Source of the DNA: Dietzia timorensis
GTDB taxonomy: Bacteria; Actinomycetota; Actinomycetes; Mycobacteriales; Mycobacteriaceae
NCBI RefSeq assembly: GCF_001659785.1
Contig: NZ_CP015961.1
Coordinates: forward strand, 2,046,001 to 2,110,000
Direction of reading: 5' to 3'
DNA length: 64,000 nucleotides
The notes under the pieces were generated by a model. It was given only the letters and a program-made list of their open reading frames with translations. It did no database searches and was not told where the DNA came from. Below, piece after piece: positions 1 through 47,340 of the stretch (position 1 is its first letter; every line of letters starts with the position of its first letter). The position numbers and the translations under genes were made by a program.

Positions 1-102
1 GTGGGAGACCCGGCCCTCGCCTCGCCCGCGGGCGCTGCAGCGATCCGCGACGACATCGAATCCCGTGTCCGCACACTGCTCGACACGCTCCTCACCGACT
101 GA
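1..102 (+). CDS. Arsenate reductase (LMW-PTP family), C-terminal end, partial
   Basis: The frame is open from the first base and ends with TGA at 100-102. It encodes the last 33 residues of a protein whose end (GDPALASPAG, then RDDIESRVRTLLDTLL) matches the DPA motif and final helix of the arsenate reductase that starts 15 bp downstream (EDPAGQG, RDEIRSRIEALIEELL). The DP pair supplies the general acid in low-molecular-weight-phosphatase-type arsenate reductases. The catalytic N-terminus lies outside the window. With the next gene this forms the end of an arsenic operon read rightward. Confidence 0.6.
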   Translation: MGDPALASPAGAAAIRDDIESRVRTLLDTLLTD

Positions 103-117
103 AACCGAAGGAATCTC

Positions 118-963
118 ATGACCGACCAGAAACCCTCCGTCCTGTTCGTCTGCGTCCACAACGCCGGACGCTCCCAGATGGCCGCCGGCTACCTCCGCGA
201 CCGCGCCGGCGACCGCATCGAGGTCCGCTCCGCAGGATCGATGCCAGCCGACCAGATCAACCCGGTCGCGGTCGAGGCCATGCGGGAAGAGGGCATCGAC
301 ATCACCGCCGAGCAGCCCAAGGTCCTCACGACCGAGGCCGTGCAGGACTCCGACGTCGTGATCACCATGGGCTGCGGCGACTCCTGCCCGTTCTTCCCGG
401 GCAAGCGCTACGAGGACTGGAAGCTCGAGGACCCGGCAGGGCAGGGCATCGAGGCGGTCCGGCCCATCCGCGACGAGATCCGCTCGCGCATCGAGGCGCT
501 CATCGAGGAACTGCTCCCCCCGGCCACCCCGCAGCAGCGGGACGAGCGCCAGCCTTCGGTGCTGTTCGTCTGCAAGAAGAACGGCGGTAAGTCCCAGATG
601 GCCGCCGCTCTCATGCGCAAGCTCGCCGGCGACGCCGTCCAAGCCCACTCGGCGGGCACGGCCCCGGGTTCGGCGCTCAACGCGTTGTCCGCCGCGTCCG
701 TCGCCGAGGTCGGGGCGAGCCTGGATGGCGAGCACCCAAAGCCGATCGACCCGGGCCTCCTGCTTTCCGTGGACCGCGTCGTCGTCGTCGGCGAGGAAGC
801 CGTGGTCGAGCCCGTGCCGGGAATGGCCGGGGTCCTCGAGACCTGGGTGATCGACGAGCCGTCGACGCGGGGCATCGAGGGCGAGGAGCGGATGCGCCTG
901 ATCCGCGATGAGATCTTCGGGAAGGTCCGCGAGCTCGCCACGGAGCTCGCATCTGAAGACTGA
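118..963 (+). CDS. Tandem two-domain arsenate reductase (ArsC-ArsC fusion)
   Basis: The 281-residue protein holds two low-molecular-weight-phosphatase-type domains, twice the usual length of about 130. Domain 1 (residues 7-140) has the P-loop CVHNAGRS (CX5R), two further cysteines in MGCGDSCP and the acid motif EDPAG; this three-cysteine layout is that of thioredoxin-coupled ArsC enzymes, which reduce arsenate to arsenite in the cytoplasm. Domain 2 (about 145-281) has CKKNGGKS, where the P-loop arginine is lysine, lacks the extra cysteines, and has DEPS in place of DP. Domain 2 may therefore be inactive, regulatory, or use another thiol such as mycothiol. The arsenite efflux partner is not adjacent; the nearest is the ACR3 gene in the next block. 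Family is certain; the role of domain 2 is not. Confidence 0.85.
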   Translation: MTDQKPSVLFVCVHNAGRSQMAAGYLRDRAGDRIEVRSAGSMPADQINPVAVEAMREEGIDITAEQPKVLTTEAVQDSDVVITMGCGDSCPFFPGKRYEDWKLEDPAGQGIEAVRPIRDEIRSRIEALIEELLPPATPQQRDERQPSVLFVCKKNGGKSQMAAALMRKLAGDAVQAHSAGTAPGSALNALSAASVAEVGASLDGEHPKPIDPGLLLSVDRVVVVGEEAVVEPVPGMAGVLETWVIDEPSTRGIEGEERMRLIRDEIFGKVRELATELASED

Positions 964-1126
964 GCGAACCTCTGCAAGAACGAAAGGCGTTCGCTCGCGC
1001 TGCTGGCGATCGAACTTTCTCGCACCGGAGCAGAAGCCCCCGCCGTCTCGTGACACTTCAGCTGTTCGTTGAATCATCGAGACAGGCGACTCCGAGTCCT
1101 GGACTCACTATCTGTAGTCGATATCG

Positions 1127-1477
1127 ATGTACGATACTGACATGGAGTCCAACGACGACGCTTCGACGGAGTTCGAGCACCACGACCTATTGTCCGGGCT
1201 CGTGCGCATGCACGTCCTGCACCACGCAGCGCAGGAGGAGATCTACGGGGCGTGGATGATCGAGGAGCTCGCAGGCCATGGCTACCGGCTTTCGCCCGGG
1301 ACGCTATACCCGATGCTGCGCCGGATGGTCGCCGACGGATATCTGACCGTGCGCTCCGAGCGCGACGGACGCACGGTGCGCAAGTACTACTCCGCCACCG
1401 ACAGGGGACGCGAAGGGCTCGCCCAAGCGCGGGAGCGCGTCCAGATCTTCACCCGAGAGGAACCCGAACATGGCTGA
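1127..1477 (+). CDS. PadR-family transcriptional regulator of chrA
   Basis: A 116-residue PadR-type winged-helix repressor, with the wing region LSPGTLYPMLRRMVADGYL and a short C-terminal helix. Its end overlaps the start of chrA by 8 bp, so the two form one operon, and PadR regulators next to chrA commonly respond to chromate. The start could be ATG 1127 or ATG 1142; neither has a clear Shine-Dalgarno, so the message may be nearly leaderless. A perfect 10-bp palindrome (TCGATATCGA, 1118-1127) inside a wider imperfect dyad at 1114-1132 is a candidate auto-operator. Confidence 0.75.
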   Translation: MYDTDMESNDDASTEFEHHDLLSGLVRMHVLHHAAQEEIYGAWMIEELAGHGYRLSPGTLYPMLRRMVADGYLTVRSERDGRTVRKYYSATDRGREGLAQARERVQIFTREEPEHG

Positions 1478-2690
1478 TGCCGTGTCCGCACCGACGAGAG
1501 CCGTGCGAGGCTCCGCCTGGGAGGTGTTCCGCGTCTTCCTCAGGCTCGGCGTCTCCTCCTTCGGCGGACCGATCGCGCACCTGGGCTACTTCCGCACCGA
1601 GGCCGTCGAGCGCCGGAAGTGGCTGGACGACAGGGAGTACGCCGACCTCGTCGCGCTCTGCCAGTTCCTGCCGGGCCCCGCGTCGAGCCAGGTCGGGTTC
1701 GCGATCGGCATGCACCGCGCCGGGGCCCTCGGCGCGCTGGCGGCGTTCCTCGCCTTTACGTTGCCATCGGCGGCGCTTATGGTCGCGTTCGCCTACGGGG
1801 CGTCGCTGTTCACCGGCCCCGTCGCCGAGGGACTGCTCATCGGGCTGAAGATAGTCGCGGTCGCCATCGTCGCCCAGGCGGTCCTGGGGATGGCGAAGAG
1901 CCTGGCTCCCGACAGGCAGCGCGCGTCGATCGCAGCCGTCGCCGCGGCCGCGGCCCTGCTGCTGGCCGGATCGTCAGGGCAGGTCATCGCGATCGCGCTC
2001 GGCGCGGTCGCCGGGTACTTCTTCTGCCGTGCTGCGAGCATGGCGACCGGCGGGGCGCTGCACTTCCCCGTCCGGCGCGGCGTCGGCGCAGCGAGCCTGG
2101 TCCTGTTCGGGATCCTGCTGCTCGGCCTGCCAGTGGCAGTGATCGCGACGGGCTCAGGAGGTCTAGCGCTCTTCGACGCCTTTTACCGCGCGGGCTCCCT
2201 GGTCTTCGGCGGCGGGCATGTCGTCCTGCCGCTGCTCCAGTCCGGAGTCGTCGAGACCGGGTGGGTGGGCGACCAGCAGTTCCTGGCCGGCTACGGTGCT
2301 GCGCAGGCGGTGCCCGGGCCGCTGTTCACCTTCGCCGCGCTCCTGGGCACGGCATCGACCACTGGGCCCGGCGGAGTCCTCGGAGCGGCGATCGCCCTTG
2401 TCGCCGTCTTCCTGCCCGGATTCCTGCTCCTGGTCGGCGTGCTGCCGTTCTGGAACTCGCTGCGCCAGCGCCCCTGGGCCCAGGCCGTGATGCGCGGAGC
2501 CAACGCCGCGGTCGTCGGCATCCTCGCCGCAGCCCTGTACTCCCCGGTGTTCTCCACCGCGATCACCGGCCCCGGCCCGTTCGCTCTCGCGCTGGTCTGC
2601 TTCGTGCTCCTGATCGCGTGGAAGCTGCCGCCGTGGGTCGTCGTGATCGTCGGCGCTGCTGGAGGAGTGCTGCTCTCGCTCGTGCCCTGA
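1470..2690 (+). CDS. chrA: Chromate efflux transporter ChrA (CHR family)
   Basis: The 406-residue membrane protein has the two-repeat layout of long-chain ChrA. The N-terminal repeat carries GVSSFGGPIAHLGYF and CQFLPGPASSQ (residues 27-85); the C-terminal repeat carries GSLVFGGGHVVLPLL and AAQAVPGPLFTF (about 240-290). Each is followed by several hydrophobic segments, about ten in all. ChrA exports chromate from the cytoplasm using the proton-motive force. It is translationally coupled to the PadR gene. It is the last cargo gene before fpg copy A, whose stop codon lies 95 bp beyond on the opposite strand. Confidence 0.9.
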   Translation: MADAVSAPTRAVRGSAWEVFRVFLRLGVSSFGGPIAHLGYFRTEAVERRKWLDDREYADLVALCQFLPGPASSQVGFAIGMHRAGALGALAAFLAFTLPSAALMVAFAYGASLFTGPVAEGLLIGLKIVAVAIVAQAVLGMAKSLAPDRQRASIAAVAAAAALLLAGSSGQVIAIALGAVAGYFFCRAASMATGGALHFPVRRGVGAASLVLFGILLLGLPVAVIATGSGGLALFDAFYRAGSLVFGGGHVVLPLLQSGVVETGWVGDQQFLAGYGAAQAVPGPLFTFAALLGTASTTGPGGVLGAAIALVAVFLPGFLLLVGVLPFWNSLRQRPWAQAVMRGANAAVVGILAAALYSPVFSTAITGPGPFALALVCFVLLIAWKLPPWVVVIVGAAGGVLLSLVP

Positions 2691-2785: not shown

Positions 2786-3640
2786 TCACGCTAGGGTCGT
2801 TGTCGATTTTCGCTGGCAGATCGGACACGAGTGGCTCGAGCGGTTCATGAATTGTTCCCGCACGATCGGCGTCCCGCAGCGCGTGCAAGGCTGGCCGGTA
2901 CGACCGTAGGCATTCAGGCTGCGGGCAAAATAACCGCTGCTGCCGGCCACGTCGACATAGAGGGAATCGAACGAGGTTCCGCCTTGGTTTAGCGCGGCGG
3001 CCATGACGTCGCGCGCAGCATCGATCAGCGCTGAGATCCTTGGCTTGCTCAAGGACGATGCCGCCGTCTCCCCGTGCACCTTGGCAGCCCAGAGTGCTTC
3101 GTCGGCGTAGATGTTCCCGATGCCGGACACTACCGTCTGGTCCAGCAGCACGCGCTTGATGCCGGTTTTTTTGGCCTTGATCAACGCAACTGCTGCCGCC
3201 TGGTCGAACAGCGGATCGAACGGATCCCGCGCGATGTGGGCGATCGGCGAGGGTAGCACCGCTCCGCCTTCGTCGTACATCAGATGCCCGAACGTGCGCT
3301 GGTCATCGAACCGCAGATCGTGGCCGCCGTCGGTGAAGGTGATCCGCGCCCGCTCGTGCGCAGCGACGGCAGCATCAGGCGACGTGATGAGCATCTGCCC
3401 GCTCATCCCCAGGTGAGCCAGCAGCGCGTCCTCGCCGTCCAGGATCAGCCACAGGTACTTACCGCGGCGGGCAGTCCCCGTGATCGTCGCCCCGACCATC
3501 CGTGCGGCCAAATCCTCCGTACCGCCCACATGACGGCGGGCCGCACGCGGATGCAGAATAGTGGCCGAGGCGATCGTCCGGCCACGGACATGATCGTCGA
3601 GTCCACGGCGCACGACCTCGACCTCAGGAAGTTCAGGCAC
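2786..3640 (-). CDS. fpg: Formamidopyrimidine-DNA glycosylase, island copy A
   Basis: A full-length Fpg (284 aa). Starting at GTG 3640 gives PELPEVE directly after the initiator, which places the catalytic proline at the mature N-terminus; upstream in-frame starts would bury it. Also present are the lysine of RRGKYLW, the motif [11 protein letters not shown], and a C-terminal C4 zinc finger (CTRC ... CPIC) with the conserved arginine in MNRSS. It should excise 8-oxoguanine and nick the abasic site. By eye it is close to copy B and much less like the native gene at 24563, and unlike the native gene it stands alone with its own leader. Its C-terminus reads [10 protein letters not shown] rather than CQRKR, so the end was altered exactly at the block junction. 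Confidence 0.92.
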
Positions 3641-4220
3641 GGGTAGCACCTCGCAGTGTCCGGGACCCAGGGCTACGGCGGTTCGTTGCTGAACAGGTCG
3701 GGCTATCGAAGTGCTTGGTCAGAGCCTTTCGTGCCAGGTCAGACCGGGAAACGACTCGTTGACGTCGGGCCACTGTCCGGCACTGCCAAGCGGGATCTTT
3801 GCGCGTGCGACTTGCTTCGACCCGCTTTGCATGAATGTAGAAGGGGCCCTACTTCCCACGATAGATACATTGAAAAACTGGGAGAGTAGGACGATGGCGT
3901 TTTCGCTGGTCAGAGGCTACTTCACCGCTAAGTGACGTGCGTATGATGTGTGCTGCCTCCACACCAGAGTACGGCCTCACGACGTCAACCTGCCAACTGC
4001 CCGGTCGAAGGAAGGATCGGGCATCCGCGACCCGTGCGCACAGGACGCCTTCGCCATCGAAGCAGTCCCGGCCTCCACTTCTCCTTCTCTTGGCCTTCTG
4101 TTCGATCAGGTGGTAGTGGGGACCTGAGCGACGCCCGCCGGCCGCCCTGACGAGAGCCGAGGCCCGCCTTCGGCACTTCTCTGATTGAGGGATCCCGGCA
4201 CCCCCCGTTGCACGAGGCTT
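3641..4220. other. Gene-free stretch: leader of fpg copy A and block boundary
   Basis: No supportable gene. Positions 3641-4042 are the upstream part of the repeated fpg unit, including the highly conserved block at 3738-3876. Positions 4043-4220 are unique and lead to the 3' end of the ACR3 gene. Short rightward reading frames exist here but are not supported as proteins. Confidence 0.6.
3738..3876 (-). promoter_or_regulatory. Highly conserved fpg leader block, copy A
   Basis: These 139 bases match 15186-15326 with about five differences by eye, fewer than in the adjoining fpg coding sequence. Read leftward toward fpg, a possible extended -10 (TGTATCTA) lies near the right end, about 220 bp before the fpg start, so most of the block would be 5' leader RNA. 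One strong potential stem pairs AAGCGGG with CCCGCTT across about 20 bases. It could be promoter plus structured leader, or a recombination arm. Only its right end (CCCACAATAG) survives in unit D at 8951. Confidence 0.45.
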
Positions 4221-5219
4221 CTACGACACGGACTTCGCCGGTCCTATCGCGGGATCGTGAGCCACGCGGATGATCCACGGGATCAGTCGCACGAAAACCA
4301 CCATGACGACCAGCTCGACCAGGGTCTGCGTGACGACCACGAGGGGAGCGAGGTCGAACGCCGCGGGCAGCGCGAGCACCAGCGGCAGCACGACGAGTGA
4401 GTTCCGGGTCGCGCCGATGAACACGATCGCCCGTCTGCCGGGCACGTCGAGGCCCGCGACTCTGCCCGCCAGCATCCCGACCGGCACCATCACGGCGGCG
4501 AAGAGGACGTAGACCGGCACCGCGAGGAGCAGAGAGCCGAGCCGCGCGCTCACGCGAGCGATCTGCGAGGCGACGACGACCGCGAGCGTGGCGACCATGA
4601 GCGGCACCATCGCGCCCATGACCGCCTGTTCGACCCTGCGCGCGGCGCGCGATCTGGCCGCGGACAGCTGGGTCAGCGCCGCGCCCACGAGGGGCAGGGC
4701 GATGATGAGCACGAAGGCCTCGACGAACGGCGCGAACTCCACGGACCCCACGAACTCCGCTCCGACGAACAGCCATAGGTACAGCGGCAGCAGGAGCATC
4801 TGGGTGAGCATCAGCAGCGGGGCGGCTGCCAAGAGCTTCTCCTCGTCGCCGCCGGCAAGCCCGGCGAAGACGATCACGTAGTCGATGCACGGGGTCAGCA
4901 GCACGAACAGCACGCCGACGAGGAGTACCTGGTCGTGGGCCACGATCCCCGACAGCAGCCAGACGACGGCGGGCACCAGCACGAAGTTCACGACGAGGAT
5001 CGCGGCAAGGAAGCGCCAGTCGCGGAAGGCGTGCCCGATTCTGCCGAACGGGATGCCGAGGAACGTGGCGTAGAGCAGCAGCGCGAGCACTGGGTGGATC
5101 GCCAGCTCGGCCGGGTAGGCGACCACGGGCCAGGCCAGCCCGACGACGGCCCCGATCGCCGGCCCCGCGACATAGAGCGCGACCTCGTGCCGCTCCATCC
5201 ATTCCACGCTCATCTGCAT
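4221..5219 (-). CDS. ACR3-type arsenite efflux permease (BASS superfamily)
   Basis: The 332-residue protein has about ten hydrophobic segments, as in the ACR3 / bile-acid-symporter superfamily, with the membrane cysteine in TPCIDYVIVF that aligns with the essential ACR3 cysteine, and a polar-in-helix motif GATRNSLVVLP near residue 275. It should export arsenite or antimonite from the cytoplasm. ATG 5219 is preferred over the longer GTG start at 5252 because AGGGAG lies 7 bp before it. It is divergent from a MerR-family gene across 105 bp holding a MerR-type promoter, rather than next to the usual ArsR repressor. The matching arsenate reductases are in the neighbouring block, beyond fpg copy A. 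Confidence 0.85.
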   Translation of the reverse strand: MQMSVEWMERHEVALYVAGPAIGAVVGLAWPVVAYPAELAIHPVLALLLYATFLGIPFGRIGHAFRDWRFLAAILVVNFVLVPAVVWLLSGIVAHDQVLLVGVLFVLLTPCIDYVIVFAGLAGGDEEKLLAAAPLLMLTQMLLLPLYLWLFVGAEFVGSVEFAPFVEAFVLIIALPLVGAALTQLSAARSRAARRVEQAVMGAMVPLMVATLAVVVASQIARVSARLGSLLLAVPVYVLFAAVMVPVGMLAGRVAGLDVPGRRAIVFIGATRNSLVVLPLVLALPAAFDLAPLVVVTQTLVELVVMVVFVRLIPWIIRVAHDPAIGPAKSVS

Positions 5220-5274
5220 CTGTTCTCCCTCATCACGTGCAAGGGCGGGCAATCCCGCCTACAGAAAAACGTTA

Positions 5275-5298
5275 GACCTTGAACCCGGGTTGAAGGTC
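5275..5298 (-). promoter_or_regulatory. MerR-type operator/promoter for acr3
   Basis: A near-perfect 24-bp dyad with half-sites GACCTT and AAGGTC separated by 12 bp. Read leftward, a -35 TTGACC and a -10 TAACGT flank the dyad with a 20-bp spacer, the lengthened spacing that MerR activators correct by DNA distortion. It therefore drives the ACR3 gene; the MerR gene reads the other way. Confidence 0.7.
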
Positions 5299-5324
5299 AA
5301 GCTAGCGAAGCATAGGCTCGAAGC

Positions 5325-5750
5325 ATGAAGATCTCCGAGGTCGCCGAGCGCAGCGGAGTGCCGGCGAGCACGCTGCGCTACTACGAGCGCCTCGGCTTCC
5401 TCGCGGCGCGCCGGAGCCCGAACGGATACCGGGACTTCGACGAGGGCCACCTCGAGCGGCTCGACTTCATCGCTTCAGCCAAGCGGCTCGGACTCGAACT
5501 GCCCGAGATCCGCCGCCTCTTGGAGCTCGCCGACACGGGCACCTGCACCGGCGTCAAGGTCGCGCTGCAGCCGCTGCTGGCCGAGCAGATCGCCGCCGTC
5601 GAACGGCAGATCAGCATCCCGACCGCACTCCAGGAACAACTGAGCGCGGCGCAGGCCCACGTCGACGACTGCCCGGACAGCGACGAGCAGTGCCGGTCCG
5701 AGTGCGCGTTCCGGGCCTTCGCACGGACCGCGCCGGTGCCCGATCAGTAA
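5325..5750 (+). CDS. MerR-family metal-responsive regulator of acr3
   Basis: A 141-residue MerR protein with helix-turn-helix ISEVAERSGVPASTLRYYERLGF at residues 3-25, a dimerisation helix (about 78-115), and cysteines in TGTCTG, DDCP and EQCRSEC that could bind a metal or metalloid. It is divergent from the arsenite permease and very probably activates it through the operator at 5275. MerR control of an ACR3 gene is less common than ArsR control; arsenic(III) or antimony(III) as the signal is inferred from context only. Confidence 0.8.
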   Translation: MKISEVAERSGVPASTLRYYERLGFLAARRSPNGYRDFDEGHLERLDFIASAKRLGLELPEIRRLLELADTGTCTGVKVALQPLLAEQIAAVERQISIPTALQEQLSAAQAHVDDCPDSDEQCRSECAFRAFARTAPVPDQ

Positions 5751-5754
5751 TAGC

Positions 5755-5800
5755 CAATAGGTCAGCCATTGCTGTATAGTTCAGTGCATGCTGACTATTG
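5755..5800 (+). promoter_or_regulatory. Inverted repeat overlapping the cmtR start (candidate operator)
   Basis: Arms CAATAG-G-TCAGC (5755-5766) and GCTGACTATTG (5790-5800) form an inverted repeat around a short AT-richer core with a possible -10 (TATAGT). The right arm covers the cmtR start codon, so repressor bound here could block both initiation and the first codons. Position and symmetry suggest CmtR autoregulation. Confidence 0.45.
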
Positions 5801-6147
5801 CTTCGCGTCTTGACGTCATGAACCGGCTCGGCCGGGCCATGGCGGACCCGACGCGCTCCCGGATCCTGATGACCCTGCTGGACGGGCCGAGCTACCCGGC
5901 CGTGCTCTCGCGCGAGCTGGAGCTGACGCGCTCGAACGTGTCGAACCATCTGACCTGTCTTCGTGACTGCGGGATCGTGGTCGCCGAGCCCGAGGGGCGG
6001 CAGACGCGCTACGAGATCGCCGACCCGCACCTCGCGGCGGCGCTCACGGCGCTGGTGGACGTGACGCTGGCCGTGGACGAGCACGCGCCGTGCGTGGACG
6101 CCGAGTGCACGGTGCCGGGCTGCTGCGGGACGGGAGCGGGCGCGTGA
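5788..6147 (+). CDS. cmtR: CmtR-like cadmium/lead sensor (ArsR/SmtB family)
   Basis: A 119-residue ArsR-family repressor that aligns end to end with Mycobacterium tuberculosis CmtR: ML at the start, then RLGRAMADPTRSRIL, LTRSNVSNHL and CLRDCGIVV. Cysteines in NHLTCLRDC and EHAPC correspond to the Cys57, Cys61 and Cys102 ligands of CmtR for Cd(II)/Pb(II). Three more cysteines follow in AECTVPGCC. Metal binding should release it from DNA and allow expression of the downstream ATPase. Its stop overlaps the ATPase start by 4 bp (GTGA), giving translational coupling. Confidence 0.9.
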   Translation: MLTIASRLDVMNRLGRAMADPTRSRILMTLLDGPSYPAVLSRELELTRSNVSNHLTCLRDCGIVVAEPEGRQTRYEIADPHLAAALTALVDVTLAVDEHAPCVDAECTVPGCCGTGAGA

Positions 6148-8054
6148 GCGCGGCGTGCGGCTGCGACGAGCCGGAGACCCGGGTCGGTGAGGAGGCCGAG
6201 GAGGAGCGGGAGCGTCCGTGGTGGCGCGACCGCGGGATCATGTTCCCGGTGTTCTCCGGCGTCGCCTTCGGAACCGGTCTGGTCCTGGAATGGGCAGGGG
6301 CGGAGAGCCCGGCGCTGGTGGCGTTCTGGATCGGCCTGCTGCTGGGCGCGTCGACGTTCACGCCCGGCGCGATCCGCAAGCTCTTCAAGGGCAAGCTGGG
6401 CATCGGGCTGCTGATGACGATCAGCGCGGTCGGCGCGGTCATCCTCGGCTACGTCGAGGAGGCCGCAGCGTTGGCGTTCTTGTACTCGATCGCCGAGGCG
6501 CTGGAGGACAAGGCGATGGACCGCGCCCGCGGCGGGCTGCGGGCGCTGCTCAAGCTGGTCCCGGAGACCGCGACCATCCCGCAGAACGGCGCGTCCGTGG
6601 AGGTCGCTGCGAAGGATCTGGCCGTTGGGCAGCTGATGCTCGTGCGGCCGGGTGAGCGGATCGCGACCGACGGGATCGTCCGCACGGGTCGGTCGAGCCT
6701 GGACACCTCGGCGATCACCGGGGAGTCGATCCCGGTGGAGGTCGAGCCCGGCGACGCGGTGTCGGCCGGGGCGATCAACACCGCCGGTGCCCTGGAGGTC
6801 GAGACGACCGCGGCGGGCACCGACAACTCGCTGACCACGATCGTGGAGCTGGTGGAGCAGGCGCAGGCCGAGAAGGGCGACCGCGCCCGCCTGGCCGACC
6901 GCATCGCCCGGCCGCTCGTGCCCGGCGTGCTGATCCTCGCCGCCCTCGTCGCGATCATCGGCTCGCTGCTGGGCGACCCGGAGCTGTGGATCACCCGCGC
7001 CCTCGTGGTGCTCGTCGCCGCGTCGCCGTGCGCGCTGGCGATCTCCGTTCCGCTGACCGTGGTCGCCGCGATCGGCTCGGCGAGCAGGTTCGGCGTGATC
7101 ATCAAGTCCGGCGCGGTCTTCGAGCGGTTCGGCGTGATCCGCCACGTCGCCGTCGACAAGACCGGCACCCTCACCCGCAACGAGCCCGCCGTCACCGCCG
7201 TCCTCACCGCCGACGGGGTGGACGAGGCGCTGGCATTGGCGTGGGCGGCGGCGCTGGAGCAGCACAGCACCCACCCGCTGGCCGCCGCGATCACCGCCGC
7301 CTCGCCCGGGGCCCCCGCCGCCTTGGACGTGACCGAGCAGGCCGGGCACGGGATCGAGGGCATCCTCGACGGGGCCCGGGTCACCGTCGGCAGCCCTCGA
7401 TGGCTCGACGCGGGAACGCTCAAGGACCGGGTCGCGGGCCTGGAGGAGCAGGGCATGACCGTCGTGATCCTGCACCGCGACGACGTCCCGGTCGCCGCGA
7501 TCGGGGTCCGCGACGAGCTGCGCCCCGAGGTCCCCGAGGTGGTCCGCACCCTCGCCGCGCAGGGCGTCGGGGCGACCATGCTCACCGGCGACAACGCCCG
7601 CACCGCCCGGGCGCTGGCCGTGCAGGCCGGGATCGAGGACGTGTGCGCCGAGCTGCGTCCCGAGGACAAGGCCACCGCGATCAGCGAGCTGGGCAGGCAC
7701 GGCTCGGTCGCGATGATCGGCGACGGCATCAACGACGCCCCCGCCCTGGCCGCCGCGGACATCGGCATCGCGATGGGCGCGACCGGCTCCGACGCCGCGA
7801 TCGAGTCCGCCGACGTCGCCTTCACCGGCCACGACCTCCGTCTGCTCCCGCGCGCGTTCGACCACGCCCGCCGCGGCAGGCACATCATCAACCAGAACAT
7901 CATCCTGTCCCTGCTGATCATCACCGCGCTGCTGCCGCTGGCCCTGTTCGGCGTGCTCGGCCTCGCAGCGGTGGTGCTCGTGCACGAGATCGCCGAGGTG
8001 ATAGTGATCCTCAACGGGCTCCGCGCCGCCAGGACGAGGAAGACCGCCTCGTGA
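6144..8054 (+). CDS. Heavy-metal P1B-type ATPase (CmtA/CadA-like)
   Basis: A 636-residue P1B ATPase starting at GTG 6144. Landmarks: actuator motif TGES, the metal-site motif SPC (SPCALAIS) typical of Zn/Cd/Pb exporters, phosphorylation motif DKTGTLT, the HP pair in STHPLAA, and the hinge GDGINDAPA. No HMA domain precedes the first membrane segment; instead a short N-terminus carries CGC. It should pump Cd(II), Pb(II) or Zn(II) out of the cytoplasm, matching the CmtR sensor upstream. It overlaps lspA by 4 bp, completing a three-gene operon with GTGA at both joints. Confidence 0.92.
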   Translation: MSAACGCDEPETRVGEEAEEERERPWWRDRGIMFPVFSGVAFGTGLVLEWAGAESPALVAFWIGLLLGASTFTPGAIRKLFKGKLGIGLLMTISAVGAVILGYVEEAAALAFLYSIAEALEDKAMDRARGGLRALLKLVPETATIPQNGASVEVAAKDLAVGQLMLVRPGERIATDGIVRTGRSSLDTSAITGESIPVEVEPGDAVSAGAINTAGALEVETTAAGTDNSLTTIVELVEQAQAEKGDRARLADRIARPLVPGVLILAALVAIIGSLLGDPELWITRALVVLVAASPCALAISVPLTVVAAIGSASRFGVIIKSGAVFERFGVIRHVAVDKTGTLTRNEPAVTAVLTADGVDEALALAWAAALEQHSTHPLAAAITAASPGAPAALDVTEQAGHGIEGILDGARVTVGSPRWLDAGTLKDRVAGLEEQGMTVVILHRDDVPVAAIGVRDELRPEVPEVVRTLAAQGVGATMLTGDNARTARALAVQAGIEDVCAELRPEDKATAISELGRHGSVAMIGDGINDAPALAAADIGIAMGATGSDAAIESADVAFTGHDLRLLPRAFDHARRGRHIINQNIILSLLIITALLPLALFGVLGLAAVVLVHEIAEVIVILNGLRAARTRKTAS

Positions 8055-10445: not shown

Positions 10446-10448
10446 GGC

Positions 10449-16772: not shown

Positions 16773-16801
16773 TGTGGTCCTCTCATCTCTCAAGAGGCAG
16801 A

Positions 16802-16835
16802 GGGGCCGCATGGATCCTGTGGTCCATGCGGCCCC
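16802..16835. terminator. Strong hairpin between aldo-keto reductase and monooxygenase genes
   Basis: A perfect 13-bp stem (GGGGCCGCATGGA and its complement) with an 8-base loop. The leftward tail (TCTGCCTCTTG) is only mildly T-rich, so it may terminate partly or stabilise the upstream message. Confidence 0.5.
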
Positions 16836-16855
16836 TGCGCCGGCGTTCATCGTGC

Positions 16856-17755: not shown

Positions 17756-17781
17756 GGTGGTCGCTCCTTTCGGGAGGGAGT

Positions 17782-18636: not shown

Positions 18637-18651
18637 GGGTGCTTCTCCTGT

Positions 18652-19887
18652 TCAGACGGTTGCGGTCTCGGGAGTGGTGGAGCCAGAGGCGGTCTCCGCC
18701 GCTCGATCGGCCTCGGCGGCGGTGAGGATCGGCTTGATGCCGATGAGCAGGGCGAGGGTGGCCACGGCGATGAGCGCGCCCACCAGGGGCGTGGCCAGCA
18801 CCCCGAACTGCCCGAGGACGATCCCGCCGAGGGCGGCACCGGCGGCCATCCCGGCCTGGGTGAGGACGACGCCGATGCCCATCGACATCTCCGGGGAGCG
18901 GTGGCCGACCAGCAGCAGCGTCTGCTGCCATGCCAGGATCAGACCCGAGAACCCGATCCCCCAGACGAACAGCAGCGCCAGCACCACCGGGATCGCGGTG
19001 ATCCCGATCGACATCAGCACCAGGCACGCGGCCATCAGCAGCGGCATCGAGACCAGTGCGGCGATCCGGGAGCGGGCGGCGACCCGCCCGCCGAGCCACA
19101 CGCCGAGCACGCCGCCGGTGCCGAAGACGAGTAGCGACAGGCTGGTCACCAAGGCCGGTGCGCCGAGCGCTGCCAGGTAGGGGTCGATGTAGGAGATGAC
19201 GGCCATGTAGCCGACCATCATCAGCATCCATCCCGCGCCGATCCTGAGCACGCCGGGCTGGCGCAGCGCCTGCAGCAGCGGCATCCGCTCGGTCTACTCG
19301 GCCCGCATCGGCGGGATCTTGATCGCCAGCAGGGCAGCGCACAGCAGGGCCATCAGCGCTGCGCCGGCGAAGGTAGCCCGCCAGCCGAGCGTGGTGCCGA
19401 CCAGGGAGGCCAGGGGCGCGCCGAGGGCGATGCCGACGGTGTTCGCGCCGATCACGATGCTCAGGGCCCGGCGCTCGTGCTTCAGGCCCGCGACGCCGAT
19501 CGCCACCGCCGGGGCCAGCGACATGAGCAGCCCGTGCGCGCCGCCGGAGACGAACCGGCCGACCAGGGCCGGCATCAGGTCCGAGGCGAAGAACACCACG
19601 GCGTTGCCGGCGACGAACACCAGCAGGGTTCCGGTCAGGGCGAAGCGGCGCGAGAACCGCACCGCCAGCGCGGTCAGCGGCAGCGCGAGGACCGCGTTGC
19701 CCAGCGAGTACAGGGCCGTCAGCGACCCGGCCATCGCGATGTTCGTGTTCAGGCCGGGGGCCATCTGGTTGAGCAGCCCGGCGGGGCTGAGCTCGACCGC
19801 GAGGGCGAGGAAGCCGGCGGAGGCGAGCACGAGGATCGCCACCCAGGGGAACCTCTCGGTCGCGGCACGATCTGTCTGTGAGGTCAC
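18652..19887 (-). pseudogene. MFS efflux transporter broken by an in-frame TAG
   Basis: Read leftward from GTG 19887, the first 197 codons encode six transmembrane segments of a DHA1-type major facilitator, ending PPMRAE at TAG 19294-19296. The same frame continues without shift (TER, then MPLLQALRQPG) for 210 more codons with the other six segments. A single substitution in the cytoplasmic loop between the halves is the likely lesion. An ATG at 19284 could restart the second half, but a weakly supported restart would give two half-transporters. It would have been the first gene of the MFS-AKR-AKR-monooxygenase operon. Confidence 0.8.
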
Positions 19888-19954
19888 GTGAGCCTTTCGG
19901 TGCGTCGTAGGAAGGCAGGGCGATCATCCGCCCCGGGCCGACGCCCGCACTGAT

Positions 19955-20009
19955 GCGGATACGTCATGTCCGCTTTAACGGTACCACGTAAACGGATACT
20001 CCGCGTCCG
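19955..20009 (-). promoter_or_regulatory. Paired candidate TetR operators before the MFS/AKR operon
   Basis: Two dyads: GCGGATACGTCATGTCCGC (19955-19973) and CGGATACTCCGCGTCCG (19993-20009), spaced 38 bp start to start. The same CGGATAC/TCCG pattern recurs upstream of the glycosidase operon and tetR. They lie 70-120 bp before the MFS start. Confidence 0.55.
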
Positions 20010-20056
20010 GTACTGTCGTTCTGACGGCTTCTGCCGCTCGTCCCCGCGATCCGAGC

Positions 20057-22297
20057 TCATGAGCTCGCCTCGCCGACGATGCGCAGAGCCTCGTTGTAGG
20101 GCAGCGGGAATCCGTCCACCCGGCCGATCGGGAACATGCCCAGCACGCGCAGCGCATGCTCGTCCGTGGCCTGGCCGTTGCGTTCGAGCGCCTCGAGCAG
20201 CAGCGGCCCCGCGACGGGGTGCGCAAGCACTTCGTCGACACCGGACTCCATCGACAGGGAGCGTGCGACCTCGTCGCCCCGGAGCGCGACCGACGTGACG
20301 GCGCGGATGTCGCGGCTGGACGCCCCGACCTCGATCCGGTACTCGCCGCCCTCCAGGACCCAGTCGTCGACCCGGACGTCCCAGTAGGCGAGCTCGCCGC
20401 GACGCAGCAGGATCTCGGCCACCGCAGTCTGCCCGGGCTCGAGGTCCAGTAGCGCGAACCCCTTCAGCTCCCGGGGCGGGCGCTGAACCACCGACGCGTC
20501 AAGGGCCGTGTAGACCTGGACGACCTCGCGGCCCGCGACCGCGCCGGCGTTCGTCACGGGGACGCTCACGAGCACGTCGCCGTCGGACTGCACGGCGGCG
20601 GCGTCGCCGTAGACGAACCGCGTGTACGACAGGCCGTGGCCGAAGGGGAACGCAACCGCGCGGTGCTCGGCGTCGTAGCCCCGGTATCCGACGAGCAGCC
20701 CCTCGCCGTAGCGGACATGGTGCAGCTCGCCCGGGAAGCTCCCATATGAGGGCGCGTCTTCCAGCCGCAGCGGGATCGTCTCGGCGAGCCGCCCGGAGGG
20801 GTTGACCCCGCCGAAGAGGACGTCGGCCGTGGCCGGGCCGCCCGCTTGGCCGAGGAGCCAGCCTTCGACGATCGCAGGTATGTCATCGGCGAACGGCAGG
20901 AGCACGACTCCCCCGTTGGAGAGCACGACCACCGTGCGGGGGTTCGCGGCGCGCACGGCCTCCAGGAGGTCGAGCTGCGCGCCGGGCAGGTCGAGGTGGG
21001 TTCGGTCGAAGCCCTCGGACTCGTCCTCGAGCGGGACGCCGAGGAAGACGACCGCGACGTCGGCGTCGGCGGCAGCCGACGCGGCCTCCGCGCGAAGCCC
21101 CGGCTCGTCGCCTGACCCGTCGCATGCGAACCCCGGGGCGAAGATCACCTCGCCGGCAGCTTCTCGTCGGATCGCGTCGAGCGCCGCGTCGACGCGGGTC
21201 GGGTTCACCTGGGAGGAGCCTCCGCCCTGGAAGCGCGGCGTGCGGGCGAACTCGCCGATCACGGCGATGCGGGATCGCCGGTCCAGCGGGAGCAGGCCGC
21301 CCTCGTTCTTGAGGAGCACGATGCTGCGCGCCGCGGCCTCCCTCGCGAGCGCATGGTGCGCGTCCGCATCGACGGGTTCGGGCCGTGTCGGCCTCTCGGA
21401 CGCCTTCTTCACGAGGTCGAGCACCCGGCCAGCGACAGCGTCCAGAGCGGCCTCGTCGAGCACCCCGTCTCGCACGGCGTCGACGACCTGGGCGTCGGTG
21501 CGCCCGCCACAGGCCGGCATCTCCAGGTCCATTCCCGCGGCGACGCCCGCGACGCGGTCGCTGACCGCGCCCCAGTCGGAGACGACGAGACCTTCGAAGC
21601 CCCACTCGTCGCGCAGCACGTCGGTGAGCAGCCACCGGTTGTGGGAGCAGAATGTCCCGTTGATCGCGTTGTAGGCGGCCATCACGGTCCACGGCTGGGC
21701 GTCCTTCACGACCCGTTCGAAGGCCCGCAGGTAGATCTCCCGCAGCGGACGGGGGTCGACGTCGCTGGAGACGCGCAGCCGGTCGGTCTCCTGGTTGTTC
21801 GCCGCGAAGTGCTTCAGCGACGCCCCCACGCCTTGGGACTGCAGGCCCTTCACGAGCGCGGTGCCGAGAACGCCGGAGACGATCGGGTCCTCCGAGAGGT
21901 ACTCGAAGTTCCGGCCGCACAGCGGGGAGCGCTTGATGTTGATCCCCGGCCCGAGCAGGACGTCTACGCCGAGCAGGGACGCCTCCCGGCCGAGGGCTCG
22001 TCCAACGCGCTCGGCGAGCTCTGCGTCCCAGGAGGAGCCGAGGGCGACCGCGGGCGGGAAGCAGGTCGCGGGCAGGCTGCCCGACAGGCCCAAGTGGTCC
22101 CCTTCGCCCCGGGGCATGCGCACGCCGTGGGGTCCGTCGACCATGGTGATCGTCGGGAGCGCTGCGCGGTCGATCGCCTTGGTGGCCCAGAAGCTGCCGC
22201 CGCTGGTCAGGGACGCCTTCTCCTCAAGCGTCAGGTGGTGCACGTCCAATTCTCGCTCCTTCTGTCCGTTCTGCGCAGACGACAAGGGGCCGCTCAT
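20057..22297 (-). CDS. Glycoside hydrolase family 3 (beta-glucosidase-like)
   Basis: A 746-residue GH3 enzyme. The N-terminal barrel includes ITMVDGPHGVR, LLGPGINIKRSPLCGRNFEYLSED in part, SLKHFAANNQE, and the nucleophile aspartate in LVVSDWGAV near residue 245. The second alpha/beta domain and a C-terminal fibronectin-III-like domain follow (FGHGLSYTRF, then TNAGAVAGREVVQVY). There is no signal peptide, so it acts in the cytoplasm on imported oligosaccharides or glycosides. Its start overlaps the stop of the sugar-transporter gene by 4 bp (ATGA), so uptake and hydrolysis are translationally coupled. Confidence 0.92.
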   Translation of the reverse strand: MSGPLSSAQNGQKERELDVHHLTLEEKASLTSGGSFWATKAIDRAALPTITMVDGPHGVRMPRGEGDHLGLSGSLPATCFPPAVALGSSWDAELAERVGRALGREASLLGVDVLLGPGINIKRSPLCGRNFEYLSEDPIVSGVLGTALVKGLQSQGVGASLKHFAANNQETDRLRVSSDVDPRPLREIYLRAFERVVKDAQPWTVMAAYNAINGTFCSHNRWLLTDVLRDEWGFEGLVVSDWGAVSDRVAGVAAGMDLEMPACGGRTDAQVVDAVRDGVLDEAALDAVAGRVLDLVKKASERPTRPEPVDADAHHALAREAAARSIVLLKNEGGLLPLDRRSRIAVIGEFARTPRFQGGGSSQVNPTRVDAALDAIRREAAGEVIFAPGFACDGSGDEPGLRAEAASAAADADVAVVFLGVPLEDESEGFDRTHLDLPGAQLDLLEAVRAANPRTVVVLSNGGVVLLPFADDIPAIVEGWLLGQAGGPATADVLFGGVNPSGRLAETIPLRLEDAPSYGSFPGELHHVRYGEGLLVGYRGYDAEHRAVAFPFGHGLSYTRFVYGDAAAVQSDGDVLVSVPVTNAGAVAGREVVQVYTALDASVVQRPPRELKGFALLDLEPGQTAVAEILLRRGELAYWDVRVDDWVLEGGEYRIEVGASSRDIRAVTSVALRGDEVARSLSMESGVDEVLAHPVAGPLLLEALERNGQATDEHALRVLGMFPIGRVDGFPLPYNEALRIVGEASS

Positions 22298-23589
22298 CGC
22301 ACGCCCCGAATCCTGGCGACCATCACGAGCCCGACCAGGGCGGCGATGATCGAGACGGGGAACGCGAGCAGGTACGCCCCGGTGGCGGTCACGATCGCGG
22401 AGGTGATGATCGGGCCCACGGTCTGGCCCGCCGTGGTGGACATGTTGAGGATCGCCAGATCCTTGCCGGCCTTCTCCTTGTCCGGCAGCACGTCCACGAG
22501 CAGCGCCTGGTCGACGGACATGTACACCCCGTACCCGAACCCGGCGATGCCGGCCAGGAGGAACAGGCCCGTCGTGCTGGGCATCAGCCAGGGCATCGCG
22601 ATCCCGACGCAGAACAGCAGACTGGAGAGGATCACCGGGAGCTTGCGGCGGCCAATGAGATCGGAGATCGGTCCTGCGACGGCCGAGCCGATCAGCGACA
22701 CGACGAGGGTGATCAGCGCCATCGTCGAGATCGTGACCGCGGATTCAGCCACGGTCTGGCCGACGTAGTCCTGGATGATGTAAAGCTGGTAGGCCATGAT
22801 CATCTGGTAGCTGATGAGCATGAAGAAGCGCGACCCGAAGGCCCAGTAGAAGTCCGGGGCCCTGCGCGGCGGTGCCATCGATACCAGGACGTCCTTCAGG
22901 CCCCGGCTCGCCGGAGGCAGGTCCGCAGAGGAGGGCTCGCGGGGCCACAGAGCCACCGCCGCGATGCCGCTGATCAGCACGACCCCGCCTCCGACGAGGA
23001 ACCCCGACGCCAGGTTGGTGATGAACGCAGCGCCCAGCAGGGTTCCCGCCGAGACACCCACGGCCACGCCGGTGCCGTAGAACGTGGAGACCGTACCGCG
23101 TCGCTCCTGCGGCACGCGGTCCGAGAGGACCGCAACGGCCGACGCCAGGAGCATGTTCAGCGCAGCCTGGAAGACGCAGAACGCCGCGATGATCGCAGCC
23201 GGTCCGCTCATCCAGCCCACTGAGGCGAGCACCAGGCCCACGATGGCCGCGCCCGCGAGGATCCAGGGAGTCCTGCGCCCCAGACGGCTCCGCGTACGGT
23301 CCGACAGGTTGCCGAACACGATGTTGGCCACCAGCGCCGATGCGGTCCCGAAGGCGTTGACCGCACCCAGAACCCCGGCCGGGTTCTCCACTCCCATGTC
23401 CGTGAGCCGCTGAGGGAGCACCACAGCGGCCACGATCATCATTCCGCTGATCCACAGGAAGCCGAAGACGCCGAACCCGATCCCGTAGCGGACCACGCCT
23501 GAACGCGAGACCGGGACGGCCTGGATGATCGACGTCGCGCTACCCTCGACGGGTTCTCGCTCGACCGGCGGCTTTGTTGCTTCAGACAT
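22294..23589 (-). CDS. MFS sugar/glycoside transporter
   Basis: A 431-residue major facilitator with 12 predicted membrane segments and the intracellular loop motif GNLSDRTRSRLGRRTPW, typical of glycoside-pentoside-hexuronide-like and plant-oligosaccharide symporters. Coupled to the GH3 gene, it probably imports a beta-glucoside for intracellular hydrolysis. Its promoter region (23590-23744) is shared with the divergent tetR and carries two candidate operators. Confidence 0.85.
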   Translation of the reverse strand: MSEATKPPVEREPVEGSATSIIQAVPVSRSGVVRYGIGFGVFGFLWISGMMIVAAVVLPQRLTDMGVENPAGVLGAVNAFGTASALVANIVFGNLSDRTRSRLGRRTPWILAGAAIVGLVLASVGWMSGPAAIIAAFCVFQAALNMLLASAVAVLSDRVPQERRGTVSTFYGTGVAVGVSAGTLLGAAFITNLASGFLVGGGVVLISGIAAVALWPREPSSADLPPASRGLKDVLVSMAPPRRAPDFYWAFGSRFFMLISYQMIMAYQLYIIQDYVGQTVAESAVTISTMALITLVVSLIGSAVAGPISDLIGRRKLPVILSSLLFCVGIAMPWLMPSTTGLFLLAGIAGFGYGVYMSVDQALLVDVLPDKEKAGKDLAILNMSTTAGQTVGPIITSAIVTATGAYLLAFPVSIIAALVGLVMVARIRGVR

Positions 23590-23666
23590 GGCGTCTTTGC
23601 CCTTTCAGTTGGCCACCCATGCCCGATCTGCGCACCCTGCGCCGAAGTGGATGGACCCCGAGATAA

Positions 23667-23728
23667 GCGGATGCGACACATCCGCCTCTTGGAAGGTAGC
23701 ACCGAAAGCGGATACGTCGCAACCGTTT
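23667..23728. promoter_or_regulatory. Two candidate TetR operators in the MFS-tetR divergent promoter
   Basis: A perfect 7-bp-arm dyad GCGGATGCGACACATCCGC (23667-23685) and a weaker dyad at 23706-23728 beginning AAGCGGATACG. Both resemble the sites at 19955-20009. The second lies 17 bp before tetR, suggesting autoregulation. Confidence 0.55.
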
Positions 23729-23744
23729 CTGGTATCATGAAGCC

Positions 23745-24416
23745 ATGGCCGAGACGAAGCTGCGCAAGGATGCCGCCCGCAACAGGGACCTGCTCATGAA
23801 GGCGGGGCGCGAGCTGTTCGCCCAGCGCGGCCTCGAGGCGACGCTCAACGACGTCGCCCACCACGCAGGCGTCGGCGTGGGCACCGCCTACCGGCGCTTC
23901 GCCGACAAGGACGAGCTCATCGACGCCATCCACGCCCAGCAGGTCGACGAGCTCGAGGCGATCCTGAACGAGGTGCTCGCCTGCCCCGACCCCTGGGAAG
24001 GACTGGTGCTGTACCTGGAGCGGGCGCTGCAGATCCAGGCGCAGGACCTCGGCATGGCGCAGATCCTCTCGGGACAGCACGCTCGACCGGAGAAGTACGA
24101 CTGGAGCCGCGACCGCCTCGCTCCCCTGGTCGAGAAGATCGCCGAGCGCGCACGGTTGGCCGGCGTCGTCCGCGACGACCTGACCGGCGTCGACTTGATC
24201 CTGCTGCAGGTCTCCCTCACCGCTCTGGCCAAGGTCGCCCATGGCCGCGCCGAATCGGTGGGCCGCGAAGACCTCGCCGAGCTCTACCGTCGCTACCTCT
24301 GGGTCTTCCTCGACGGCCTGCGCCCCGGACGCGACGCCCCGTCAGAGCTCCCGATACCGTCACTGACCACCCAGCAGGCCCACATCATGCTCGGGGCAGC
24401 GCGCCCCAGCGCCTGA
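23745..24416 (+). CDS. TetR-family transcriptional repressor
   Basis: A 223-residue TetR protein. The DNA-binding helices are at residues 10-55 (LFAQRGLEATLNDVA, then VGVGTAYRRFADKDEL); the C-terminal ligand domain is of the common type with no assignable ligand. It is divergent from the sugar-transporter operon. The same operator pattern before the MFS/AKR operon 4 kb away implies that it controls both operons of block 4. It is the last cargo gene before the native fpg. Confidence 0.85.
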   Translation: MAETKLRKDAARNRDLLMKAGRELFAQRGLEATLNDVAHHAGVGVGTAYRRFADKDELIDAIHAQQVDELEAILNEVLACPDPWEGLVLYLERALQIQAQDLGMAQILSGQHARPEKYDWSRDRLAPLVEKIAERARLAGVVRDDLTGVDLILLQVSLTALAKVAHGRAESVGREDLAELYRRYLWVFLDGLRPGRDAPSELPIPSLTTQQAHIMLGAARPSA

Positions 24417-24562
24417 GAGACACTTCGGGCGCACGTCGACCCCGTTCGACTTCCAGTGAGTCCGCAACCCTGCATTCGACGTGACGGCGAGCGATATACG
24501 TTGACCTAGTGCAGGTCGAAGCAGCGCCGCGATCGAGGTCGGCGTGCGAGCGACCGCTCAGA

Positions 24563-25450
24563 CTAGCGTTTTCGCTGGCAGACGGGGCAAAAGTGGCTCG
24601 ATCGGTTCATGAACTTCTCCCGCACGATCGGCGTCCCGCAACGCCTGCAGGGGCGGCCAGCAAGCCCATAGACAGCTCGAAAGAGGCCCGCTGAACCCGA
24701 ACGACCGTTGACGTTGACGTAAAGCGCGTCGAAGCTCGTGCCGCCGGCTTCGAGGGCTCGGCCCATCACCTCGCGTGCGGCCTCCAGCAGCTCGACAAGT
24801 CGCGTGAGCGTCAGCCGCGAACCGAGGCGGCGCCCGTGAACGCGCGCGGTCCACAGCGCCTCGTCGGCGTAAATGTTGCCGATCCCGGCCACTAGCGTCT
24901 GCTCGAGGAGTTGCCGCTTGATCTCGACGTCGCGCGAGCGCATCCGCTTGGCGATCGCCCGGATATCGAACGTCGGCTCGAAGGGGTCGGGCGCTATGTG
25001 CGCGATGGACGCGGGCACCACTCGTGCAGGGCCGGCGGGCGCAGAGTGAGGGTCGCGGATAAGCATCTCCGTCGTCATATATCCAAAGGTGCGTTGGTCG
25101 ACGAAACGGAGCTCCTGGCCATCGGACAACGTGAGGCGGGCGTGGGTGTGCCGGGCCGCGGGAAGTTCGGGAGCGGCGATGAGGAGTTGGCCCGACATGC
25201 GCAGGTGGACAACCAGGGCGCGATCGCCGGGCGCGGATTCGGCATCGCCGAGTGTGAGCCACAGGTACTTGCCGCGGCGCTCGGCCGAATGGATGCGGGC
25301 GCCGGCGAGCTCATCGGCGAGGCCCTCCGCGCCGCCAGGGTGTTCGCGGGCGACGCGACGCCCGGTGAACGCGGCGAAGTCGATCGTATGGCCCACGACG
25401 TGGTCGGCAAGGCCGCGACGGACGACCTCAACCTCGGGAAGCTCGGGCAT
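24563..25450 (-). CDS. fpg: Formamidopyrimidine-DNA glycosylase, native copy C
   Basis: The 295-residue housekeeping Fpg/MutM starts at ATG 25450 (MPELPEVE), 12 bp after the rnc stop, in the sepIVA-DUF177-rnc-fpg order of the Mycobacteriales. Catalytic N-terminal proline, [18 protein letters not shown] and the zinc finger (CRRC ... CPVC with MNRSS) are all present, so it should remove 8-oxoguanine. By eye it is only about half identical to copies A and B over most of its length, yet almost identical over the last 28 residues. That pattern would fit exchange of its 3' end during island insertion, although the zinc finger is also conserved in the family. Confidence 0.96.
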   Translation of the reverse strand: MPELPEVEVVRRGLADHVVGHTIDFAAFTGRRVAREHPGGAEGLADELAGARIHSAERRGKYLWLTLGDAESAPGDRALVVHLRMSGQLLIAAPELPAARHTHARLTLSDGQELRFVDQRTFGYMTTEMLIRDPHSAPAGPARVVPASIAHIAPDPFEPTFDIRAIAKRMRSRDVEIKRQLLEQTLVAGIGNIYADEALWTARVHGRRLGSRLTLTRLVELLEAAREVMGRALEAGGTSFDALYVNVNGRSGSAGLFRAVYGLAGRPCRRCGTPIVREKFMNRSSHFCPVCQRKR

Positions 25451-47336: not shown

Positions 47337-47340
47337 TCTG

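Follow-up and report, generated by a model that had tools for sequence, protein, structure and literature searches.

Four cargo cassettes in tandem within the fpg gene of Dietzia timorensis, probably entered by site-specific recombination

Why should one chromosomal locus carry several copies and fragments of the base-excision repair gene fpg (mutM), each next to unrelated cargo? The question was raised by a 64,000-nucleotide stretch of Dietzia timorensis (GCF_001659785.1), hereafter the window, which spans positions 2,046,001–2,110,000 of a chromosome assembled as one contig of 3.61 Mb (NZ_CP015961.1). Positions given below are window coordinates unless stated otherwise, negative values lying to the left of it. 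A first-pass annotation, made by a model from the letters alone, had described four cargo blocks that each end at their right side in fpg sequence of the same orientation (copy A, remnant D, copy B and native copy C), and had proposed that successive islands were inserted at the fpg 3' end. The four blocks were confirmed, with all fpg sequences on the minus strand and the cargo as described. With a probability of roughly 0.8, we interpret the locus as four passively mobile cassettes arrayed in tandem, which came in by site-specific recombination at a single attachment site (attB), the SG|YF sequence within fpg.

The array occupied all the space that separates native fpg (copy C) from osmC (-3880 to 24694) and comprised four cassettes. 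On the right, copy C (24563–25450) lay in its normal place after rnc (25463–26191), as had been stated. On the left, a fifth fpg sequence, the 3' tail E (genome positions 2,041,947–2,042,120), stood directly before osmC approximately 4 kb outside the window and formed the array's left edge. The first-pass annotation had advised looking for both another fpg end and a recombinase at this edge; the fpg end was found, with osmC beside it and smc further on (genome positions 2,033,432–2,036,992), and a recombinase was not. Between E and smc lay OsmC and four further called genes. Except for the permease, these five genes matched a Tsukamurella record (tblastn identities of 63%, 33% over 78 amino acids, 72% and 47%); the annotated order in Tsukamurella is rnc-mutM-(four genes)-osmC-acylphosphatase-hypothetical-glutathionylspermidine synthase family-DUF350-smc. 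The comparison with island-free relatives that had been suggested also agreed. The 1.5-kb flank of fpg contained osmC at 18 of 21 congener loci, within approximately 140 nt of the fpg match in 17 and after approximately 0.8 kb in G006. At the remaining three (G009, G001 and G022) it was not in the flank; G022 ended at a contig edge, and in G009 a 5.4-kb ABC-transporter/two-component insert separated fpg from osmC. Since E adjoins osmC and congeners keep fpg and osmC adjacent, the array could be placed exactly between these two genes. Together with the same architecture in unrelated genomes, these observations bore out the proposal of successive islands at the 3' part of fpg, each with an fpg end and, for A and B, the whole gene. 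The features within the window are listed here. The earlier list stood for A to D; E, left of the window, and the conserved non-coding element CE1 were absent from it and have been added.

1–2690, plus strand: window part of cassette 4, which starts outside at about -3880; end of ArsR-ArsC fusion, LMWPc/ArsC-like 118–963, PadR 1127–1477, ChrA 1503–2690
2786–3649, minus strand: fpg copy A, complete, closing cassette 4 on the right; retains the SG-YF site intact, along with the catalytic and zinc-finger motifs
3650–3839, unstranded: segment upstream of fpg A that belongs to the right end of cassette 4; its G420 homologue stands between cassette fpg and truncated native fpg
3840–3855, unstranded: junction core GAAGG-N6-ACTTC, cassettes 4/3
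3848–4131, plus strand: CE1, left end of cassette 3
4221–8614, unstranded: cassette 3 cargo; SBF-family transporter 4221–5252 (minus strand), MerR, ArsR-type regulator, heavy-metal P-type ATPase 6105–8054, LspA
8811–8936, minus strand: fpg 3' tail D, right end of cassette 3
8937–9380, plus strand: divergent CE1, left end of cassette 2, with remains of a frame-broken excisionase-like open reading frame (ORF)
9528–13928, unstranded: cassette 2 cargo; CcdA-like, redoxin, small protein without family match, MerB, MerA, MerR
14281–15129, minus strand: fpg copy B, complete, right end of cassette 2
15130–15288, unstranded: right-end segment of cassette 2, counterpart of 3650–3839
15289–15489, plus strand: junction core GAAGG-N6-ACTTC and CE1, left end of cassette 1
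15654–24416, unstranded: cassette 1 cargo; FAD mono-oxygenase-like, two aldo-keto reductases, MFS in two ORFs, GH3, MFS, TetR
24563–24694, minus strand: cassette-type 3' tail of native fpg, right end of cassette 1; in-frame fusion after ...NGRSG
24695–25450, minus strand: native fpg body, copy C (full gene 24563–25450); groups with Dietzia fpg

The junctions had been predicted to coincide with the fpg stop codon. This was not the case: the crossover was located inside the gene, at the step from Gly to Tyr in SG|YF; in copy C this point is 132 nt from the end of the gene. In five of five genomes (our own, G420, G611, G1559 and G1519), the native body and the displaced tail together read as one in-frame Fpg with the zinc-finger pattern, tail E being Dietzia-like (CQPAPRK). 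The target end was restored in all five, as at attL and attR, with a displaced tail on one side and a replacement tail or gene on the other. A break at the same point was observed in the two congeners with a replaced tail, G006 and G009, which the tree shows as sister species and whose fpg genes were 89% identical up to SG and 60.5% identical after YF. Against 16 other congeners, body-minus-tail identity was +16.8 points for G006 and +15.6 for G009, and those 16 spanned -4.7 to +4.3 (18 congener genes and copy C compared; G001 was left out for masked letters in the gene, and G007, G018 and G022 because no full gene was recovered). The in-frame fusions and the G006/G009 break place the insertion between the Gly and Tyr codons. 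Copy C was 75–79% identical to A and B in the tail and 60% in the body, and cassette and host fpg genes were approximately 60% identical in DNA.

CE1 formed the left end of each of the four cassettes. It was approximately 180 nt in all four (longer in some), lay directly right of E, A, D and B, and had no homology to fpg. At all five CE1 junctions that abut a displaced tail (E, G420, G611, G1559 and G1402) the palindrome GAAGT-N6-ACTTC was present, its GAAGT half coming from the host Tyr-Phe codons and its ACTTC half from CE1. ACATTGA-like motifs were seen by eye near the junction at both cassette ends. In G611, CE1 was adjoined by an intact excisionase-like ORF (HTH_17, E 1.6e-4; PHROG excisionase, E 0.054); copies at E, D, G1559 and G1519 were frame-broken, and none was seen at A, B or G420. 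CE1 was also considered as a structured RNA and rejected: its consensus fold was weak (-2.56 kcal/mol; one of nine pairs changed on both sides), and none of three weak Rfam matches in L010 fell at CE1.

The fpg sequences themselves were of two origins. Profile matches to A, B and C were above the cut-off, and D and E matched as tails of 33 and 46 positions, respectively. The same genome had two further matches, one at 2.509 Mb to a weaker relative and one at 436.65 kb to a tail. The latter is an off-locus fpg 3' tail (436,620–436,800; L067 about 6,620–6,800) beside an IS21-like pair, named by resemblance. Its junction near 436.8 kb had a sixth GAAGT-N6-ACTTC, at a non-CE1 site with a different left end. 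Proteins A and B were 89% identical, and A and C 58%. The complete cassette fpg genes (A, B, G420, G611 and G1559) formed one clade with support of 99/88 against 38 other rows, eight of them congeners, and copy C clustered with Dietzia fpg (96/92), the bootstrap being not fully settled. A and B as local duplicates of native fpg were ruled out by this clade and by the 58% identity of A to C; the synonymous divergence (dS) between A and B, 0.30, suggests separate arrivals rather than duplication in situ. The cassette genes are under purifying selection: the ratio of nonsynonymous to synonymous divergence (dN/dS) was 0.14–0.25 in 10 of 10 pairs. The N-terminal PELPE, RRGKYLW and the zinc finger, whose residues presumably have catalytic and zinc-binding roles, were intact in all five. 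From these motifs and the selection on them, the cassette copies are predicted to be functional Fpg/MutM.

Other genomes were searched for CE1 with a sequence-only model, in overlapping samples and with stricter filters above 40 genomes. Only our own genome was found among 397 genomes of its order, with an additional match in G061 that was rejected as chance (it lay inside an ABC-permease-like gene with no fpg nearby). G420 and G611 were found among 394 genomes of the class, with nothing more in 166 and 22 genomes of their respective orders; again only our own among 396 genomes of the phylum; and G1559, G1519 and G1402 among 396 genomes of the order of G448. By blastn, CE1 was detected in our own genome alone among 41 genomes. 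Outside it, CE1 was therefore found in five genomes, representing as many other families, where it lay at an fpg end or next to one. Neither CE1 nor its ORF turned up among the plasmids, phages and viral contigs searched, except for one 63-base stretch in a Deinococcus plasmid. Six viral contigs with an fpg-end 18-mer were dropped, as none encodes an fpg tail. Relatives of A among the best 80 loci listed reached 61% identity at most and had no CE1.

The first-pass annotation had also recommended searching for repeated fpg ends that flank unrelated cargo, and such cassettes, with CE1, were present in G420, G611, G1559 and G1519. In G420 the order was displaced tail, CE1, cadmium cassette, complete fpg (86% protein identity to A) and native fpg cut at NGRSGY, without zinc finger; its cadmium cassette was 86% identical to window 5772–8573. 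G1559 had a displaced tail, CE1, mer cassette, complete fpg (90% to A) and cut native fpg. G1519, of a different family, had a displaced tail, a 9-kb cassette, a cassette-type tail, CE1, mer cassette and native fpg with a cassette-type tail. Window 9065–13928 was 83% identical to the mer cassettes of both, which were 95.7% identical to each other over 5.76 kb, the high identity starting at CE1; other matching stretches of the two regions were 66–73% identical. From the Gly codon on, the fpg tail of G1519 equalled that of the G1559 cassette fpg in 129 of 129 nt, and the preceding codons differed. G611 had a displaced tail, CE1, cargo, complete fpg (78%), approximately 0.2 kb and a native body with a cassette-type tail. 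G1402 contained a tail of uncertain native status, and its CE1 was truncated; next to these stood an ORF that resembles a transposase gene and one for a 402-amino-acid protein.

The 9-kb cassette of G1519 (L177 8186–16647) was phage-defence-like, with an ApeA-like HEPN protein, a T5orf172/MUG113 protein, which we take to be of GIY-YIG type, a DEAD helicase and an MmeI-type restriction-modification enzyme, and had another type of left end. This end was resembled by the left end of a 3.1-kb insert with an Abi_2 gene in MT835574.1, a fecal contig filed as Bacteriophage sp. whose rnc-fpg neighbours are like those of a bacterial chromosome. We read these two sequences as a second left-end type. The insert of MT835574.1 encoded a relative of the 402-amino-acid protein of G1402. 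This 402–453-amino-acid protein was common to two unrelated insert loci (L180 12300–13661, L179 346–1554); it had no Pfam match and, for the one of the two that was run, no NCBIfam match.

Other inserts were observed around fpg. HTH/HipA-like genes, named by resemblance, stood beside fpg or a displaced tail in three genomes (L053 2380–3771 in G001, L064 7444–7635 in G009 and L177 6128–7653 in G1519). Possibly another insert at the fpg site, a block that includes arr (rifampin ADP-ribosyltransferase) and is reverse-oriented lay between mutM and osmC in Tsukamurella tyrosinosolvens NZ_LR134452.1 (L181 8171–10284). This record is filed as a plasmid, yet has rnc, coaD and smc.

Three of the four cassettes carried metal-resistance genes. 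The cargo was confirmed with Pfam, run on 25 of 26 called non-fpg array genes, and with NCBIfam, which covered the remaining one, and no integrase was among the matches; the CcdA-like name in cassette 2 was taken from plasmid annotation. Cassette 4 encoded a thioredoxin reductase, thioredoxin, ACR3, an ArsR-ArsC fusion, a protein with two LMWPc (ArsC-like) stretches, PadR and ChrA. The transporter at -1996 to -887 cleared the ACR3 cut-off (435 bits), and the SBF-family transporter at 4221–5252 scored 43 bits against that cut-off of 283. In cassette 1, an MFS efflux gene seemed to be split into two adjacent ORFs (18652–19842). A composite transposon driven by insertion sequences was ruled out, as transposases were absent among the called array genes. 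Outside the array, an identical tRNA-Glu (CTC) occurred twice, 1.6 kb apart (47340–47413 and 48936–49009).

What, then, could have moved these cassettes? In our own genome PF00589 had nine matches and PF00239 five, none of them in the array; the nearest PF00589 match, a XerD-like gene, was approximately 27 kb to its left. Home-made hidden Markov models found no tyrosine or serine recombinase in the other cassettes; they were built on only four tyrosine and four serine rows and had limited reach, and did detect the Xer-like proteins of L008 and L065. Among the best 80 loci listed and the fetched regions, these two (XerD- and XerC-like by place) and one at a Bacilli locus (L123) were the only recombinases near fpg. 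An integrase-bearing fpg element was not found in the plasmid, phage and viral-contig searches. Since no recombinase was found, recombination must be driven in trans or by unrecognised machinery.

The site, the ends, the displaced tail, its replacement and the same cargo with the same ends across lineages were observed directly, and we propose the following mechanism for them. Each cassette would consist of a CE1 left end, often followed by excisionase-like remains, the cargo and a right end of foreign fpg, either a complete gene with an upstream segment of approximately 160–190 nt (A, B) or a tail only (C, D). Integration, from what we infer to be a circular intermediate, would cut host fpg and push the original tail to the far side (E, by osmC), and the incoming cassette would supply an in-frame replacement tail or a whole fpg, so that the gene keeps working. 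Junctions and carried fpg genes would retain att-like sites to which more cassettes could add. That each insertion creates a new target, as the first-pass annotation had proposed, agrees with the intact SG-YF of A and B and with the G1559/G1519 identity that starts there, and the reuse of junctions is to this extent an expectation of the model. The enzyme would be provided in trans by a helper element, most likely as a tyrosine integrase, a reading suggested by the short inverted core together with the excisionase-like ORF. Both the mer cassette, in its three genomes, and the cadmium cassette, in its two, were recombinase-less, which suggests that they move in that form. The G1519 tail suggests that recombination at SG-YF inside a carried fpg can turn a whole-gene cassette into one with a tail-only end.

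Several observations weigh against this mechanism. CE1 is rare, no recombinase could be identified in the cassettes by sequence searches, and the circle and its excision enter the model by deduction. The cores at junctions A and B, GAAGG-N6-ACTTC, had one mismatch, and junction D and the second G1519 junction were without the palindrome. The HTH_17 match of 22.3 bits was below the Pfam cut-off of 27; as the other recognisable excisionase-like copies were frame-broken, many cassettes may be fixed. The body/tail difference of copy C (-4.6) did not separate it from the controls, and the inserts of G006 and G009 had no CE1 by blastn. In G611 the tail and the full fpg stood side by side, and the upstream segment aligned poorly with those of A and B. 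Finally, G001 had a hipBA-like insert (by resemblance) and no osmC, yet its fpg tail was of the native Dietzia type; inserts at the fpg-osmC locus do not all use SG|YF or swap the fpg tail.

A variant of the proposed mechanism differs in the origin of the cassettes. Each may have come with an integrase at fpg and later lost it, as in the formation and accretion of cis-mobilizable elements (CIMEs). The excisionase-like relics that adjoin CE1, mostly frame-broken, fit such decay, and the accretion route is known for integrative and conjugative elements (ICEs) and integrative and mobilizable elements (IMEs), according to the sections consulted of PMC5704250. However, three genomes had the mer cassette in one and the same integrase-less layout, two had the cadmium cassette likewise, and two of the mer copies were 95.7% identical across families. 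It is unlikely that integrases were lost independently and identically, and the form without integrase therefore seems to be mobile itself; nor did the searches made find an integrase-bearing fpg element. We regard this origin as unlikely, although it survives better than the other alternatives. Movement by host XerC/XerD, as for integrative mobile elements exploiting Xer (IMEX), would require no element recombinase and would explain the wide integrase-less spread. XerC/XerD-like proteins, named by position and similarity, were present near native loci, but no dif-like site was evident by eye, and we judge this explanation improbable. Homologous recombination between fpg genes on incoming DNA, with fpg ends as homology arms, would suit the fpg sequence of one orientation flanking every block, the exact G1559 cassette-fpg tail in the native fpg of G1519, which intragenic recombination could yield, and the same blocks next to fpg in the partly consulted Brevibacterium casei 13A list, where whole stretches may travel jointly (PMC12467314), but it is very improbable as the builder of the array, given left ends flush at one codon boundary in divergent hosts, a CE1 without fpg homology and an identity of only approximately 60% between cassette and host fpg, and may at most have later trimmed full-fpg ends to tail-only ones.

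With passive entry at SG|YF kept as the preferred explanation, a wider one can be offered tentatively, as rather less than an even bet. The cassettes could belong to an unrecognised system of Actinomycetes, recombinase-less, with at least two left-end types and the single target SG|YF, that spreads across families through a dedicated recombinase of another element or through an unrecognised one. It would act as an integron-like platform for resistance, and for phage defence in other hosts, in which entry is paid by a full, selected fpg replacement. The SG|YF site of fpg gives an exact, checkable point at which cargo for metal resistance and phage defence enters the chromosome in several Actinomycetes families; extra or truncated fpg annotations, as in the Brevibacterium table, are explained as attachment parts. 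If the cassettes do move without a recombinase of their own, it becomes a direct question which enzyme moves them and what the host loses or gains by the swap of a base-excision repair gene.

Parts of this arrangement are familiar from other systems. In integron arrays, recombinase-less cassettes pile up at one site in one orientation. The present array is likewise recombinase-less and of one orientation, but has no tyrosine recombinase alongside, its cassettes are multi-gene and they carry target-gene sequence. As regards folded single-strand sites of the attC type, the junctions had a short palindrome and the consensus fold of CE1 was weak. Staphylococcal cassette chromosome (SCC) elements, including SCCmec, stack at one housekeeping gene (rlmH/orfX), can lack ccr and use ccr serine recombinases. 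Here, neither a ccr large serine recombinase nor the orfX target was involved; insertion is in fpg, and the whole target gene is carried. GInt islands, in the sections consulted, are site-specific, with varied cargo, one short end and ginABCD with three putative integrases (PMC5385486). The array shares the first three traits and, unlike GInts, had no PF00589 match (PMC5385486). The ssrA islands of Dehalococcoides, as far as the excerpted source describes them, lie in tandem downstream of a single-copy gene and are bounded by 20-bp 3'-end repeats; sixteen islands have a serine-recombinase module, and those without an integration module were proposed to be cis-mobilizable (PMC3146451). The D. 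timorensis array differs from that description in its fpg target, in the carriage of approximately 130-nt tails or a whole gene and in having no recognised recombinase (PMC3146451).

CIMEs are described, in the part of the source used, as decay products of ICEs/IMEs that keep their att sites and stack at one gene end (PMC5704250). As in these elements, the array had att sites, no integrase inside, no transfer genes and stacking at one gene end; unlike the CIMEs of that excerpt, the same recombinase-less cassette was found in different families (PMC5704250). The gene blocks as such have already been published: islands 6 and 7 of Brevibacterium casei 13A read fpg1-merR1-merA-merB and lspA-ctpG-cmtR-cueR-fpg1-srpC (PMC12467314, partial text). 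Compared by gene list and not by sequence, they match cassettes 2 and 3/4 in content, the second in window order (PMC12467314). There they were separate IslandViewer predictions, with the glycosylases counted as DNA-repair genes, and in the text examined fpg was not treated as a target or end, nor was the array recognised (PMC12467314). The searches made in the open-licence PMC literature brought up no description of fpg as an insertion target. Tandem accretion itself is known from CIMEs, ssrA islands and SCC; the new part is passive spread across families by cassettes that carry the whole target gene.

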